Source: Melastoma dodecandrum (Eukaryota; Streptophyta; Magnoliopsida; Myrtales; Melastomataceae). Taken from it: DNA of 64,000 nt. The stretch covers positions 2,232,001-2,296,000 of the forward strand of contig JARUPY010000396.1 of NCBI GenBank assembly GCA_029817715.1. The letters run 5' to 3'. A program made the position numbers and the translations under genes. The notes under the pieces were generated by a model. That model saw only the letters and a program-made list of their open reading frames with translations. It was not told the origin of the DNA and made no database searches. How positions within the stretch are numbered: the stretch's first letter is position 1; the number at the start of each line of letters is the position of its first letter. Of this stretch, positions 17,095 through 25,930 are shown piece after piece.

Positions 17095-17700
17095 ATAAGT
17101 CGTCGTATTAAGAATATGGAGAGTTCTGTTTCTAATCACGGACGATGTACTTAATTCCTTTAATTCGATCATCGAAGATTAACGATTATGGAAGATGATC
17201 CTAAGCTCTAGCGGAATATCGGTAGAACTTCGAGATGATGATTTGTTGTCAAAGTTGTTGGGGCTTATGAGCTTGATTCTGCAACACTATGATCTAGATG
17301 AAGTCGTCGGGGCATTTAGGTTTCATCCGACAGAGCTTCGGGGTGAGTTACAGAAGAGCACCGGGACGAAGGACGTCGGCAGAACTTCGACAGGCAGGAG
17401 GTAGGAATAAAAGAGTTATTGAGGAGCCTTCTCATTTCTCTCTCTTATGAAGGTGTTGTGTGTGTTGTCGATCTCTTAATGACTTAAGGAGATCTTTATT
17501 TATAGGTTCAGGGTCAACTTATATTAAGAAACAACTATCACATATTAGGCATTCCTGTGAAATGGACTATGAACCGAATTTGAACTTGAGCATCGACCTC
17601 GATGGAGGGTTGGGTTGGTTTTATGAATTTTATTTATAATGCAAATATATTTTAATTTCGTCCGCAAACAAACAAAATTTGGGCCTTGCATTGACGTTTG
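17095..17700 (-). repeat. LTR-like repeat, left copy
   Basis: Shares a clear colinear similarity with 25,325-25,930 in the same orientation: both contain TTAAGAATAT, TCTAATCACGG, TGGAAGA, GCTCT.GCG.AATATCG, CAGAGCTTC, GAGCCTTCTCAT, AATGACTTAAGGAG and TTTATAGG. A reverse-strand TATAAATA is at 17,497-17,504, which suits a reverse-oriented LTR. The similarity is diverged by many substitutions and small indels. TG/CA ends and target duplications were not found, so a different dispersed repeat is possible. Confidence 0.6.
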
Positions 17701-18124
17701 CACAAATTATATCCATTCATTTAAAGCAAAAATTCCATGTAGACGAGAATTGAGTTATGTCCATCAACTAGGACGATTGGATCTTCCATGAAAATTATCT
17801 TTGCATATTTTTATTTTTGGTAACATAATATCATGAAAGAACCCCAACTCCTTTCCTTGTGCACGGTGGTTATGGGGATTTTAAATAAATAGGGCCAAAC
17901 ACCTATTCCTCATCTCGTAAGTGTCTTTTGTTCGAACATAGGTATGCCGCTGATGTATTCTTCTTAATTGTTTCATGCCAACAATGCCTTCAAGTGTCAT
18001 ATCAACTTACTCTTATACTAGGGATCATCTTCTCTTATAACTTTATTGAGGATTAATAAGAGTTTTGTACGGAAATACGGTTAGTTTTAAAACAAATTTG
18101 CGAAATACGGTCCCAGTTTCGTAA

Positions 18125-18600
18125 AATACGGTTTTACCGTCGAGGGGGCCCGTTCCGAAAACGCGCCCCTATTGTATGCAGGGGCGGGTTTTGGAAACCC
18201 GCCCCTTACGCAGCACCGATTCGTGGGGGAATCACGGAAAAAAGCCTAAGTGTACAAGAGGCGCGGTCTCAAAACGCGCCACTTGAACAGGCAGCCCCCC
18301 CTCGACCCCTCCTGTCCCACCTCTCGTTTTGGGCGTCTGACGGGGGCGGGTCACTCCCCCCAGTCCCCCTTCGTCCCCGGTCCCCGTTTGGACAGTCCCC
18401 CCGACCCCAAATGTCACCCCTCTACCTTCCGCCACTCCCCCCCTTTCCCCCCCTGTTGTTTGGAATGGTACAAGGGGCTGGTTTTGGAAACCCGCCCCGC
18501 CTGTGGGCATACAAGAGGTGCGGTTTAAGACGGCGCCCCTTATTGGAAAACATAAGGGGCGGGTTTTGGAAATCCGCTCCCCGTCTGGCAATACAACATT
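18125..18600. repeat. left terminal region of the MULE, palindromic GC-rich
   Basis: Contains three copies of a hairpin unit, stem GGGGCGGGTTT paired with AAACCCGCCCC around a 3-nt loop (18,181-18,205; 18,475-18,499 and 18,554-18,580 with mismatches), plus a stretch of C-rich sequence (18,290-18,470). The segment 18,205-18,310 (CACCGATTC, AATCACGGAAAAAAGCCTAA) recurs inverted at 24,850-24,965. GC content is far above the flanks. Confidence 0.8.
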
Positions 18601-18989
18601 CCTATGAATAACTTTAGAAACCCTGCTTCAACAAACATAAATAACCAAACTAACTTCGAAACAATTCATAGATAACATCCATACATCCAACACCAAACTT
18701 CGAAACAATCCAACACCCAACATTCAATAACAAAGCCAACGTCTATACATAACGTCCAACATCTAACGTACAAAGTCAAACGTCCAAATTTCATATCAGT
18801 AATGTCCCCTACGCCTCGTAGATTTCCTCCTAACATAAGCCTCACGACGGGAACTTCTAGAACTTCAGGCTGCTCCGATGGAACATCCGGATACAGTTGT
18901 GTAATTTGAGAAGTTCCTTCTCCTTGTTGCAAATGGTCGTACCTGAAGAAGTTATATTAGTTAAGTTATGAAAGTTTAAATGAATCTTA

Positions 18990-20945
18990 AATCGAATGAC
19001 TTACCCGAATTCTCTTGGGCCTTTAATCGGAGCTCTCGGTGTAGAACTGGACCCAAACTCGTAGTAAGGAGTGTCGTAATCACCATAAACATGAGAAACT
19101 TACGAGATGAGCATGTCTTCTCGCACTTCATGGCCCTTCTCGTCAAATACGGGGTCGTCGTATGTCCATGGCTCCTCCTCATGTTCATGATCCTCTTCTG
19201 CAACGTCGATGTGATGAGGATGATCTTCCTCCATATGATCTTCCTCCTCCATATGTTGTTCACCTTGCAGGATGAACTCGTATGCAGGTTGATCTTCCAA
19301 CCTGCCGGTACGACCATACAATCTTACCGGTGCATACTCCCGCATCATTTCCATGGACTCCGCGACAAGAGTAACGAGTTCCGGCTGGTCAGACCAAAGC
19401 TTTATCTTTCGAAAGTTCTTCATCTACATCAGAAATATAGGTTAAAGTTTAAAAATGAATGAGAAAAATGTTAAGAGATACTCATACTCATAAACGACTT
19501 ACCAATGTGCCTAGCATGGAGCCGATTTGCGATATGTGCTGCCTGGTATGCTTGGCATATCATTTTTAGTATCTAACGGGAGACTCCCAAAACAGAGGCA
19601 CGACCATGTTAATCCGATCTTCCCACTCCACAAACACTCGGTGGATCTCTCTCCAGTTGTTCATGGTCTTCCCGCGTAAATCTATTCGATGGAGTGCCTT
19701 GTTTGTGTCACAATCTTCCGGCATGAGTTGATGATCGCCAAACTGACGAATCATTCTATCCGGGAACTGCCACTCTACGATGTAGAAACAAATCAGTGGA
19801 AGTCTTGCACGCCAGAAAGCCTCACCAGATCGGCAGTAATCAGGAAGCATGGCTACCAACTCATCCGGGTAAGGATGCCAAATAATCTGCATATATCAAT
19901 ATGAATGTGTGAGAAGAGTTCGATATAATCAAACGAATTTGTTAGCTATAGAAGTTTACCTTATCCATGCTCTGCCTATCGAATGCCTCTCTGTAGGAGG
20001 AAAGAACATGGGTGGACACCGTGCGTACATCCTTCGCAACGGCCCATCGATGGCTCAAAGGCATATCTTCCACAAAGGGAGTACGAAGTCTCAGAGGTGC
20101 TGTATGAGGGATTCTATCCCATGCCCAAATCTGTAACAGTATCAAGGGACCCTCCATCTGAGATGCCTTATGGTGAGCCGCCTTACACAAACTCCTATAA
20201 AGCCACGTAAGGCATGCTCTTCCCCAACTATAATTTCCAGCCCTCTCAAAGTCAGCTAGCGGAGGCAACCATAATAAGTGCACTAAACTATCTGACTTCA
20301 TTGTGAACAACATCCAACCAATCAGCTGCAGAATATATGCCCTGGTATGCATCTGCACTAACTCCTCAGGGGCATGTATAGGGATCTCACCAAAATTTGT
20401 AGCCAGCCAGCTCAGTCTAATACGACCAGACCTAATGTTGTCACCCCTAGGTATCCGGCCCAGTAACTCTAGACACACCGCCTCATTAGATACGGATGTA
20501 TCTGCTATCACCACATCACCATCTACGGGCAAACTTAGCTGAATTGCCACATCCTGAAGGGTGATAGTCATCTCACCGTGTAACATATGGAAGGTGTGCG
20601 TCTCCGGCCTCCAGCGTTCCGTCAATGCTGTGATGAGGGCCTAGTCCAATGATATGAACGGAAGCTTAGCCACTCCATAGAATCCTACTTGATGGAGGTA
20701 AACGTCCATCCTGGGATCGGTGGAAGCTCCCTTCAGTGATTTCTCTACCTGACGGCAAGTGAGAACGTTATTCTGTAGATAAAACACGAGTTAGTAAAAA
20801 GGTACGAATACATGAAACATATAATGCATACAAGGCATGAATACACGAATTGATATATCACACTATATCCGGCTTCCCATACAGCCGTCGATCGATGCTC
20901 TGCTTGAGCATCTAGAACACTTGTGTTTCTTGGTCCTAGACGCAT
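18990..20945 (-). pseudogene. plant mobile domain (PMD, MAIN-like) gene
   Basis: PMD proteins occur both as host silencing/developmental factors (MAIN, MAIL) and as passengers of transposable elements; the role here is unknown. Exons read leftward: from ATG at 20,945 (MRLGPRNTSVLDAQAEHRS..WEAGY); from about 20,773 (NVLTCRQVEKSLKG.., MDVYLHQVGFYGVAKLPFISLD) through ALTERWRPETHTFHM and the core (LHGEMTITLQDVAIQLSLPVDG) to about 19,958 (donor after MDK); from 19,886 (IIWHPYPDELVAMLPDYCRSG, RLPLICFYIVEWQFPDRMIRQFG); from 19,423 (MKNFRKIKLWSDQPEL, acidic His/Glu-rich run). A C-terminal YYEFGSSSTPRAP run ends near 19,005. An in-frame TAG at 20,641-20,643 and a stop near 19,566 break it. Family call rests on the core motifs. 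Confidence 0.75.
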
Positions 20946-21026
20946 TTTCCTATTATACAATATAACAACAACGGTTAAAAAGAAACACAACTTAAGCATA
21001 AAATAAAAAATCACAACTTATTCAAT

Positions 21027-23712
21027 TTAAACATTGAATAAACACTTATAAAGAATCCTATCAGGACAACTACGTCGGTTATGACCTTCCTTTCTACATA
21101 ACCCACAACTAGTTTTTCGAGATTTCTCCTTGATATCCATTTCATTACGTATATGGGATGACCGTGGACGCCCTTTTGGTCTAACTCTTGTAGGATCGGG
21201 ATTGACTCTCGGGACAGGATATTCCGGCCAATCATCTTTGCAATCAAAAGAATGCCATTTCGAAGCATACACGGCCTTCTGACACTTGAATGAGTAGAAA
21301 TGACTAATCACAGCGGTATGATCTACATGCATGTGTGCATAACATGCCAAAGCATGCGAACATGGAATGCGATAGATTTGCCCCTTCTTGCAGCTGCATT
21401 TCCGCGCTTGAAAAAATACATACTTGAGTCGATGTTTTCCTCTAGTTTTCATGTCAAATCTATCATCCTGTCGATCGAGAAGCACTACTTCGTACTGTTT
21501 GGCCTTTTCCATACATTTAAACAACCGATTTGTACAAACACTTATAAAACTTTCGCCAATTTTCAACGCGGAGTCCGCATCATCCCTTCAGCCTATCCAG
21601 TATGACACTCAGTTATACCATATTTTCCGAACAAGAGCCGAAACAGGAAGATTTCTGGCACCTCTTATATCGGCGTTGTAACTTTCGCTCAAATTTATAG
21701 TCATAAGACCATATCTATAAAAGTCATCCTGACTCAAACACCACTGCTCTTCATTCATCTCGGCGAAAAACTCTCCAGCATCTGGCATTAATTCAAACAA
21801 GCTTCTCATAATGTTTTTGTACTTCATAGTCATCGATTTCCTCGCTCGGCTATCAACTTCCTTTTACAAACAACATTTTTATATCTAGTATTGAAACTGC
21901 TTGCTACATGTCTGAGACAGAATCGCCAATGCGCAAATGGCGGGTTCCAGCCCACCTGTGGATCATGCACAGCTGCCTGAATGCCAGCATGTCTGTCGGA
22001 AATCAAGCATACTCCTCCCGTCCTATCACCAACGACATATCCCTTAAGACATCTCAAGAACCAACTCCAAGAATCATAGCTTTCCTCATCAACCAGTGCA
22101 AATGCAAGCGGCACAATATGGTTATCCCGTCCATAGCACAAGCAATTAAGAGTTTATGCCTATATTTACCATATAGAAATGTGCCATCTATACTCACAAC
22201 TGGCCGACAATGAGTAAATGTCTGAATACACTGTCCAAACGCCCAAAAAAGTCTCTGAAACTATAATACTTCCACATCGCCAAGATTATAAGTTGCACCC
22301 CAATCAACAATTGTTCCGGGGTTGGCAATTCTAATTACATTCATTAGATGCCGCAACTCGTTATAAGATTCATCCCATTCGCCATATTCAACTTCAATTG
22401 CCTTCCTCTTTGCATCCCATACTCGTCTCCGAGTTACTTCGTACCCAAATCTCTCCTTTATTACATTCCGTAGGAACGACACTTTCACTTCAGGAGATTC
22501 TCTAACAAAAGTATGGAAGTAGGGAACCATAAAGTTACAGTCAAGTCGATCATGATCTTGGGAAAGCACTGCATTTAAACATGTATGCACCTCACCAACG
22601 ATGGTTATTTCAAACTCATCATCACAAGCACGTTGAATCGCGCGTAATCTCCACTTGCAACCAAAACCAACCTCAGAACAAAACACAGACCACGTAGCCT
22701 TATCTGACTCCACAATTTCGTAGTTATAATGGTTCTTGATATGGAACATATTCACCGTATGAATGAGATGGTTCTTATGCTTGAAATGCATCCCTTTACG
22801 AAATTCAACCACAGCATCTGGATCGTCCGTCATCCTAACTTCCTCATCATCCTCGAAAATCACCTTCCCAGTATCGCCACTGTCTAGATAGAATGGTAGA
22901 GGTTTTTCCAACCGTTTCTTCCTAGAGGGACTAGCCTCATTAACCCCCACATTGTTATCATCGTTCCCTAAATCAACACCGTTAAACATTTCATCATCAG
23001 TATTCGCCTCATCGGAATTCACTATTGAATCAACAAAATGATTCTCATATCGTCGATAAATAGTTTCGTTTAGAGCTTCTTCATCGCCCACATCACGTTC
23101 TAAATCTTCAAACGGATCACCCTCTTCATAATCGTCTCCGTAGTCATTACCACCATCATCATCCATATCACCATCCTCCTCATTCCCCACATTACCACCA
23201 TATCCGCTACACCCTTCATTCACCAGTACAAATCGACGAAAATTTCTACTAACTTCAAAATTTTCCATTCTCTCTTGCACAACATTTAACCACCCCTCAT
23301 CCACATTCACTCCTACGGCTTGCATGTTACTACCGTGCTTACTTCTTGAATTTGTCGGCCTCCCTTCATTGCTAGAATTCCCAGAAACTGATATCATATA
23401 AACTTCTTGAATGCGATCAACATTTGACATCGCAAACTCACACAACAACCTAACATCTTCATCATCACCAATCGGTACTAGCACAAAATTTATGCCGGAA
23501 GGACCATACGAAGGAACGGGATATCTATGACATATTTTCAGCCTACTTCCTTCGTTTAATCTCATTGCATTAGCAATGACCCTTTCGAATTGGACATAGT
23601 CCACATTACCAGGTACCTTTATACGTTTCACTGGACCCCTATTATAACCTACTCCTTGACAACCATGAATAACTGTCGTATGACCATACATTAACAAATG
23701 AACTTGCGCCAT
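21027..23712 (-). pseudogene. MuDR/MULE transposase
   Basis: Cut-and-paste transposase of the Mutator superfamily. Order: N-terminal PB1-like part (VKRIKVPGNVDYVQFERVIANAM), acidic spacer, MuDR-type zinc/WRKY-like domain (FKHKNHLIHTVNMFHIKNHYNYEIVESDKATWSV..C..GCKWRLRA), catalytic domain (VVSIDGTFLYGKYRHKLL; LISDRHAGIQAAV; NLSESYNADIRGARNLP), SWIM finger (CSCKKGQIYRIPCSHALACY) and CCHC knuckle (CGLCRKEGHNRRSC). Broken by TAG at 22,261-22,263, a frameshift near 22,142, another near 21,830, and TGA at 21,609-21,611 and 21,588-21,590. All zinc ligands and visible acidic residues remain, so decay looks fairly recent. Probably the autonomous-type gene of the 18-25 kb element. Confidence 0.92.
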
Positions 23713-23869
23713 TCAAACGTAAGGGAAAACTTACGTGAATTAGCTACCCTCTCGATCGTAATAATACCTACAACAATTCAAACAACGTATAATTAATCAT
23801 CATAATTGTAATACCAAACAACAATTCAAATAATACCAAACAATAATTCTAAATAATCAAATCAATTTA

Positions 23870-24125
23870 TAAATTTATATACTAAATAATCAATCCTAAA
23901 TTTTCAGTGTAAATTTCTAACATAAATTTATAACCTAAATTTCTATCTCACATTTCTATCCTAAATTTCAATCCTAAATTTCAAACCATATTTTCTAACC
24001 TAAATTTCTATCTTACATTTTTATCCTAAATTTATATCCTAAATTTCTAACCTAATTTTATAACCTAAAAAAATAACCTAAATTTCAAACCTAATTTTCT
24101 AACCTAAAATATCTAACATAAATAA
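23870..24125. repeat. degenerate AT-rich tandem repeat
   Basis: Imperfect repeats of about 12-14 bp built on CCTAAATTTCTAA, upstream of the transposase start. No internal structure beyond the short period. Confidence 0.7.
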
Positions 24126-24129
24126 TTAA

Positions 24130-24390
24130 ACTTACGGATGATAATCGGATGTCGGATGGGCGGAGATCGGAGGTCGGACGTCAGAGGTTGGAGGTCGGAG
24201 GTCGGACGGGCGGACGGAGGACGAGAGGAGGACGGAAGACGAGGAGGACGAGGGACGGGACGAACGAAAGTCGGAGGCGGGGATGATGGAGCACAGGGCG
24301 TAGGAGGACGGAGGTTGGTTTTGGTTGCTGCGTGGAGGTTGCTGCGTCGGAAGTCGGGGGCCGGGGGGCTGATAAATCGACGGAAGGAGT
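24130..24390. repeat. purine-rich GGAGGTCGGA repeats
   Basis: Tandem, degenerate GGAGGTCGGA/GGACG units, strongly G-rich on the + strand. Open frames here reflect biased composition. Confidence 0.6.
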
Positions 24391-24429
24391 AAAGTAAATT
24401 CGAGTTTTAGGGTTTCGGTCCCGATTTCG

Positions 24430-25050
24430 GGACTTATGTCCGTCGGGGGGGGGGGGGGGGGTTCCGAAAACCTGCCCCTTATTGTTTTAACGGAGGGGCG
24501 AGTTTTGGAAACCCGCCCCTTATTGTTTTATTGGAGGGGCGGGTTTTGAAAACCCGCCCCGTCTGACGCCCAATGCCCTTTGGAGAGGCGGGTTTTAGGA
24601 GCCAGGGGGGCACGGGTCGAAGGTTGGGGGGGGACAGGGGGGAGTGTCTTAACTGTTGAAGGGGGGACAAAAGGGGACGGGGGGAGTGACCCGCCCCTTT
24701 GGTGTCCCCCTGGGGGGACAGGAGGGAGTGGCCGAAGGTTGAGGGGGAGACAAGGGGGACTGGGGGGAGTGTCCTAACCGTTGAGGGGGGGACGGGGGGG
24801 AGTGACCCGCCCCCGTCAGACGCCCCAAACGAGAGGGGGGACGGGGGGAGACAGGGGGGTCGAGGGGGGCTGCCTGTTCAAGGGGCGCATTTTGAGACCG
24901 CGCCCCATGTACACTTAGGCTTTTTTCCGTGATTCCCCCATGAATCGGTGATGCGTAAGGGGCGGGTTTCCAAAACCCGCCCCTCACTCGGGCACGCGAA
25001 GGACGTGTTTCCAGACCGCGCCCTTTTTGTATTGGCTTCACATTTCTCAA
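24430..25050. repeat. right terminal region of the MULE, palindromic GC-rich
   Basis: Inverted counterpart of the left terminal region. Hairpin units lie near 24,494, 24,535 and 24,957, and a G-rich run with homopolymers up to about 18 G (24,439-24,460) plus G-rich blocks (24,600-24,880). A sequence like the outer left arm (CCGTCGGGGG..TTCCGAAAAC at 24,430-24,470) appears here in direct, not inverted, orientation, so the ends are composite. Confidence 0.75.
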
Positions 25051-25324: not shown

Positions 25325-25930
25325 ACACAAATCGTCGATTAAGAATATAGAAGGCTTTGTCTCTAATCACGGGCGATGCACATGAGTTCTCTAATTCAAT
25401 CCTTAAAGATTAATGGTTGTGGAAGACAATCCTGAGCTCTGGCGAAATATCGACAGAACTTCGGGATGATACGTTGTCGAAGTTGCTGAGACGTATGGGC
25501 TTGATCCGACAACACTTTTGATAGCATAATGAAGTCATCATCGCCTTTGGACTTGATCCATCAGAGCTTCTGGGTGCGCTGCGGAAGAACACCGGGGAGA
25601 AGAATGTCAGCGAAACTTCGACTGGAAGGAGGCGGGAATCCTCCAAAGCTTATTCATGAGCCTTCTCATCTCTCTTTTATGAATGTGTGTTGGTGTCCGG
25701 TCTTTGAATGACTTAAGGAGGCTTCTATTTATAGGCTCCAAGGCTGATTTATATTAGGAGGCTGGCTATTACATATTAGGCAGCTTCTTATGGACCAAAC
25801 CATGGGTCAGTTTTGAACTTCGGCTTAGTTTTTCCCCAAATATTGTTCTTTGGGTGGGGCTTATGGCTTTTATTTATGACCCAAATATATCTATCTTCAT
25901 GGACTATGGGTTTACAAACCATTCATATCT
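25325..25930 (-). repeat. LTR-like repeat, right copy
   Basis: Diverged direct copy of 17,095-17,700, with reverse-strand TATAAATA at 25,726-25,733, 8,229 bp from the same box in the left copy. If the two are LTRs of one element, the MULE sits inside it, but too little internal sequence remains outside the MULE to show this. Confidence 0.6.

Follow-up and report, generated by a model that had tools for sequence, protein, structure and literature searches.

A broken two-gene Mutator-like element of Melastoma dodecandrum and a possible anti-silencing role for its plant mobile domain protein

Results

The window analyzed here, the whole stretch of 64,000 nucleotides from positions 2,232,001 to 2,296,000 of Melastoma dodecandrum contig JARUPY010000396.1, contains a copy of a Mutator-like element (MULE) that carries a transposase gene and a plant mobile domain (PMD) gene on its minus strand. 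The element extends from 18060 to about 25033, as judged by homology to three other copies (L024, L025, and L026) and by a common terminus, the right end being approximate. An earlier note on this DNA had described a mudrA-type transposase and a multi-exon PMD gene close together on one strand, and Pfam matches bore this out. The transposase (21027 to 23712, minus strand) has DNA-binding, MULE, and SWIM domains and a CCHC-like tail; minus-strand frames from 23712 to 21027 matched PF03108, PF10551, and PF04434 (SWIM), all three above their curated cut-offs. Its stop ends at 21027, 81 nt from the PMD ATG at 20945. The N-terminal part of the PMD gene (19566 to 20945, minus strand), defined by Pfam and reading frames, has a main exon from about 19960 to 20772 and a next exon from about 19566 to 19890, whose start was placed by homology to other copies; PF10536 matched both, at 19942 to 20640 (E 1.3e-54) and 19566 to 19895 (E 1.3e-15), and coding-like frames continue beyond the second exon to about 18870. 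The possibility of an intact gene pair was rejected: the transposase has in-frame stops at 22261–22263, 21609–21611, and 21588–21590 and changes frame near 22130 and near 21850, and the PMD has an in-frame TAG at 20641–20643.

The left terminal inverted repeat (18060 to 18452, plus strand) is whole at its outer end, which is exact at 18060, where the same GAGTTTTGTACGG terminus is found that opens the relatives of this copy. The right repeat (24712 to 25033, minus strand) lacks its outer part. Between 18180–18452 and 24712–24984 the repeats match at 83% over 283 columns, 24712–24984 pairing in inverted orientation with 18452–18180. Similarity to other copies ends at 25031, and about 107–117 bp of outer right repeat, judged by L024, L025, and L026, are missing from the window copy, which is truncated near 25033. 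The earlier placement of both genes inside inverted terminal repeats stands for the repeats themselves and fails for the outer right end. A target-site duplication was sought for this copy and not found: repeats near its ends were rejected as such since they are the palindromes described below, and GGATTAATAA was rejected because it had 5 matches, with one mismatch allowed, against a mean of 7.15 in shuffles. With both genes interrupted and one terminus truncated, neither of which the earlier note had recognized, the window copy is dead.

Searches of the 373-Mb host assembly showed that the arrangement of transposase followed by PMD recurs genome-wide, and because it does so, its occurrence in the window is not due to chance. 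For a neighboring host gene, the five best hits were all from Myrtales (65–67% identity), which points to a eudicot host, probably of that order. A search with a piece of the transposase (40 best of 360 candidates scored) gave a PMD directly behind the transposase in 39 of the 40 best matches, comprising 19 coordinate pairs with PMD-exon matches, 2 with PF10536 matches, and 18 of the 19 others, which were read directly; only at L045 did the 1.3 kb read beyond the transposase match lack a PMD. The reciprocal search with the main PMD exon gave 40 matches, including the window, at 91–100% identity (40 best of 364 candidates scored), and a transposase lay directly ahead of 37 of them (19 coordinate pairs, L025, and 17 of the other 20); L062 keeps 176 nt of transposase, and L050 and L057 had no transposase match within 1.3 kb ahead of the PMD. 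The PF10536 profile gave 139 matches (117 best of 2690 candidates scored), from which a separate set of 27 PMD loci, L002 to L028, was drawn, with L009 to L028 picked by hand and the host-like L001 left out. Same-strand transposase sequence was present at 25 of the 27, limited at L015 to the N-terminal part; L021 and L028 had no tblastn transposase match, and L021 nonetheless keeps a transposase tail. Transposase open frames of 890–904 aa remain in L010, L013, and L018.

Both termini were present in L024 and L026, with 10-bp target-site duplications matching at 9/10 and 10/10; L025 has a damaged right end, and no target-site duplication was found for it. A query of the left terminus (18060–18210, 151 bases) gave 44 matches (40 best of 1322 candidates scored), which often formed close opposite-strand pairs. 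Five short relatives that were read, 897–1112 bp long, all had both termini, and none of the five had a transposase or PMD coding match; their 10-bp duplications matched at 10/10 in three, 9/10 in one, and 8/10 in one. The earlier note had asked whether the two genes always travel together and had named two findings that would refute its reading. A single-copy PMD locus is at odds with the 40 PMD-exon matches; members lacking the PMD do exist in the literal sense, as all five short copies, which lack the transposase as well, and as one of 40 transposase matches (L045).

Several individual loci differed from this pattern or were of interest in themselves. At L014 (5560–7050), an internal deletion has probably placed the PMD in one open frame with part of the transposase, and the transposase N-terminus is likewise linked to the PMD at L015. 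L028 (2497–3960) has two head-to-head PMD pieces without a transposase match, and at L057 an inverted element half lies ahead of the PMD. At L001 (799–3075), an open frame of 759 aa contains a whole PMD, and 4 kb of sequence gave no transposase match; this is probably a distant host PMD gene. The best genomic matches to PF10551 resemble other MULE lineages, and many of them have 700–720 aa open frames. The close copy L029 is 96–99% identical to window positions 19762–21012, a stretch of about 1.25 kb that includes the main PMD exon, and 87–98% identical elsewhere, with zero silent differences in the PMD columns, and we consider this a likely conversion or recombination tract; segmental duplication was rejected as the source of L029, the match to the window being confined to the element.

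The PMD might be a passenger, a captured piece of a host gene useless to the element; the capture of gene pieces by MULEs (PMC6446971) and the broken PMD of the window copy would fit this. Between subfamilies A and B the PMD had a median dN/dS of 0.110 and the transposase one of 0.130, from 30 pairs for each gene, and between C and D it was 0.090 for the PMD (54 pairs) and 0.146 for the transposase (48 pairs); the remaining four between-group comparisons were saturated at silent sites. Values within groups were higher, 0.196–0.300 for the PMD and 0.151–0.515 for the transposase. The pairs in these comparisons are non-independent and the sample consists of selected PMD-rich loci, with L001, L007, L015, and L028 in no group. 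Between subfamilies, the PMD is under purifying selection about as strong as that on the transposase. Protein distances of the two genes were correlated over 18 loci (Mantel r 0.960, equaled in 0 of 9999 permutations), although the highest permuted r was 0.896, so that group structure accounts for much of the correlation.

The association extends to other plants: among the 120 transposase homologues listed, out of 135, 9 from Vitis or Actinidia also carry PF10536, and the PMD followed the transposase in all seven of these scanned, which are gene predictions. For 12 loci together with six Vitis and Actinidia proteins, the distance correlation was 0.955, and the PMD and transposase trees both separated A/B from C/D and kept the Actinidia trio and two Vitis proteins together; P0213 had a long, unsure branch. 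The selection on the PMD, its linkage to the transposase, and the same gene order in the Vitis and Actinidia proteins make the passenger explanation very improbable.

Between the transposase and PMD frames lies a probable intron (20950 to 21049, minus strand), placed by the offset of a GTAAG and an acceptor before the PMD ATG. GTAAG occurred 13 nt (12 in L026) after the last zinc-knuckle codons in 24 of 25 loci read, the window copy being the only one without it: its donor has A in place of G at 21049. In four comparisons of A/B with C/D loci it was the sole common 5-mer site in 45 nt of 33–42% identity, and of a further 20 loci, 9 were readable by the search pattern and all 9 had it. An acceptor-like site lay ahead of the PMD ATG, save in L016 to L021, where the acceptor scan did not settle the matter. 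Because GTAAG is conserved at a fixed place and an acceptor precedes the PMD ATG, we infer that the spacer is probably an intron, its donor mutated in the window copy, and that both genes lie on one primary transcript. The idea that splicing fuses the transposase to the PMD was rejected since the junction reading frames do not support it: in A and B, copies that have no frameshift at the junction acquire a TGA there on the predicted splice, and in C and D the transposase stop precedes the donor. L026 has a 1-nt deletion at the junction, and its frame differs. In 15 C/D-type loci the transposase ATG directly followed an acceptor-like AG, and the two proteins may arise by alternative splicing from a common leader, which we offer as an idea only; a leader donor for this was not found in L013, L022, or L027.

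The ends of the element contain arrays of a GGGCGGGTTT/AAACCCGCCC palindrome. Nine motifs were present in the window copy, four in the left end and five in the right, with none from 18795 to 23712 and none in the rest of the window. They include a 41-bp tandem repeat at 24493–24560, which is a candidate target of the PMD protein, and copies at 18180–18206 in the left repeat, at 18488 and 18557, and at 24956–24985 in the right repeat. L024, L025, and L026 had 6, 7, and 6 motifs, and the motif was dense in the five short copies (14–23). VANC21 binds arrays of a different motif, YAGTATTAY, which lie in the non-coding regions of VANDAL21 (PMC5735166); the palindromes here could also be transposase sites.

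The predicted fold of a PMD homologue resembled the DNA-bound region of VANC21, and this was the sole clear fold match; sequence identity in the fold alignment was 11%. The modeled protein, which may or may not be MULE-borne, was not that of the window but a homologue sharing 48% identity with the window exon. Of the VANC domains DUF1985 and DUF287, DUF1985 was matched in P0081 (E 4.2e-6), P0015 (0.083), and L013 (0.039), each time below its cut-off, and DUF287 was absent from the domain matches of all four proteins scanned (P0081, P0015, L013, and L001).

Two features lie outside these subjects. An AT-rich 13-bp tandem repeat (23910 to 24123, minus strand) occupies the transposase leader. The MULE is flanked by a 74% direct repeat (17097–17551 and 25329–25782), and because this flanking sequence recurs genome-wide as LTR-like, same-strand pairs 11–15 kb apart, the remnants of a large retrotransposon probably surround the MULE.

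Discussion

We propose that the window family is a repetitive two-gene MULE that would express transposase and PMD from one transcript. The PMD would be a VANC-like DNA-binding protein that reads the palindrome arrays within the ends of members of its own family and lifts the silencing of ends bearing them, so that transposase is made; short gene-less copies, having kept the arrays, would gain the same benefit and be moved in trans. Counter-silencing, the role the earlier note had suggested, is deemed the likeliest because of the predicted fold match to VANC21, although the idea itself had already appeared in the literature (PMC5418596, PMC8616336). We consider the chances about even that the common transcript and a VANC-like anti-silencing PMD acting on its own palindromes hold together. 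The broader proposition, that PMD and VANC form one family and that MULE PMDs in general are sequence-specific anti-silencing factors reading their own palindrome arrays and sharing a transcript with the transposase, is put forward tentatively, with the balance somewhat against it.

Several observations weigh against this proposal. The TM-scores were 0.42–0.44, below 0.5, for a mostly helical model of a protein whose relation to the MULE is as stated above. The DUF1985 scores fell under the curated cut-off in all three proteins showing any, the PMD of L001 gave no DUF1985 match, and a profile of 72 PMD sequences had no match among PDB sequences, VANC21 included. The close relative L029, read in part, had 1 motif and five PMD-bearing C/D loci had 0; moreover, the motif was chosen after the repeats had been seen, and its counts have no shuffled control and do not cover the B loci. 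Finally, the PMD loci were picked by good PMD score, which favors intact PMDs.

The PMD could instead be a transposition co-factor, as mudrB of maize MuDR probably is, binding the ends and aiding cutting or integration with no role in silencing. Tight linkage and common selection would suit any transposition helper, and either the transposase or a co-factor might bind the terminal palindromes. In other MULE lineages transposition takes place without a PMD. MudrB is apparently required for integration (PMC6446971), but Table 1 of the same paper lists MULE groups without PMD, and the sole clear match of the predicted fold is to an anti-silencing protein; we regard the co-factor role as a serious contender that is probably wrong. 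Alternatively, the PMD could be a decoy of MAIN and MAIL1, PMD proteins on which silencing depends and which bind PP7L (PMC7156037, PMC5418596); it would join or block their PP7L complex by protein contact, without binding element DNA. Counter-silencing by transposon PMDs has been proposed before (PMC5418596, PMC8616336), which suits this explanation; the predicted fold match, on the other hand, is to a DNA-bound protein and the motif arrays resemble VANC targets, although a decoy would be compatible with both. We think the decoy unlikely.

If PMD and VANC are one family and MULE PMDs are anti-silencing factors, the host silencing factors MAIN and MAIL1 would be relatives of a protein with which transposons counter silencing, and would serve the reverse purpose. 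A fold in common with VANC21, whose structure was solved on its DNA target, would make the anti-silencing proposal for MULE PMDs directly testable, and the host genome supplies numerous related copies, of which some retain long open frames, as well as array-only short relatives. An incomplete literature search, which did not extend to the paper behind 9lnj, gave no evident link between the PMD and VANC folds; a meeting report (PMC6419827) contains both words, and the accessible text of PMC13317346 treats VANC with no mention of PMD.

MULEs with PMD and the anti-silencing proposal are already published, and the element itself is a member of that known type. The PMD is found in silencing genes of the host as well as in gypsy elements and MULEs (PMC8616336, PMC5418596). 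Many PMD proteins are named serine/threonine-protein phosphatase 7 long form homolog, a misleading name, as Pfam gives PMD and no phosphatase. MAIN and MAIL1 have the PMD (PF10536) in common with the window element but belong to the host and act in favor of silencing (PMC5418596, PMC7156037). According to Table 1 of PMC6446971, a PMD is present in the majority of elements in several MULE groups of plants (MuDR-9_OS, MULE-Monocots, MDR, MUDRAVI2, MUDR, and part of VANDAL), which, like the window family, have a SWIM-bearing MULE transposase and long terminal repeats with PMD inside; some have 9–10 bp duplications, as do the relatives of the window copy. In those groups the PMD is often antisense, whereas here it is in the sense orientation, behind the transposase and after a probable intron. 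Fusions of transposase and PMD in MULEs of grasses and Amborella (PMC5418596) and the Vitis and Actinidia predicted proteins have the same order, transposase then PMD, as found here; those fusions are one protein, whereas the window family has two reading frames, and the Vitis and Actinidia cases are gene predictions only. Eudicots are described as having mainly genic PMD-C (PMC7156037), against which, clade assignment aside, the window family represents an abundance of transposon-borne PMDs in a single eudicot. Like VANDAL21 of Arabidopsis with its VANC21 (PMC5735166, PMC10398659), the window family is a MULE with a second gene, and both have repeated motifs in their non-coding parts, although the motif differs (PMC5735166) and the long terminal repeats of the window family contrast with those of VANDAL elements, which are absent or short (PMC6446971).
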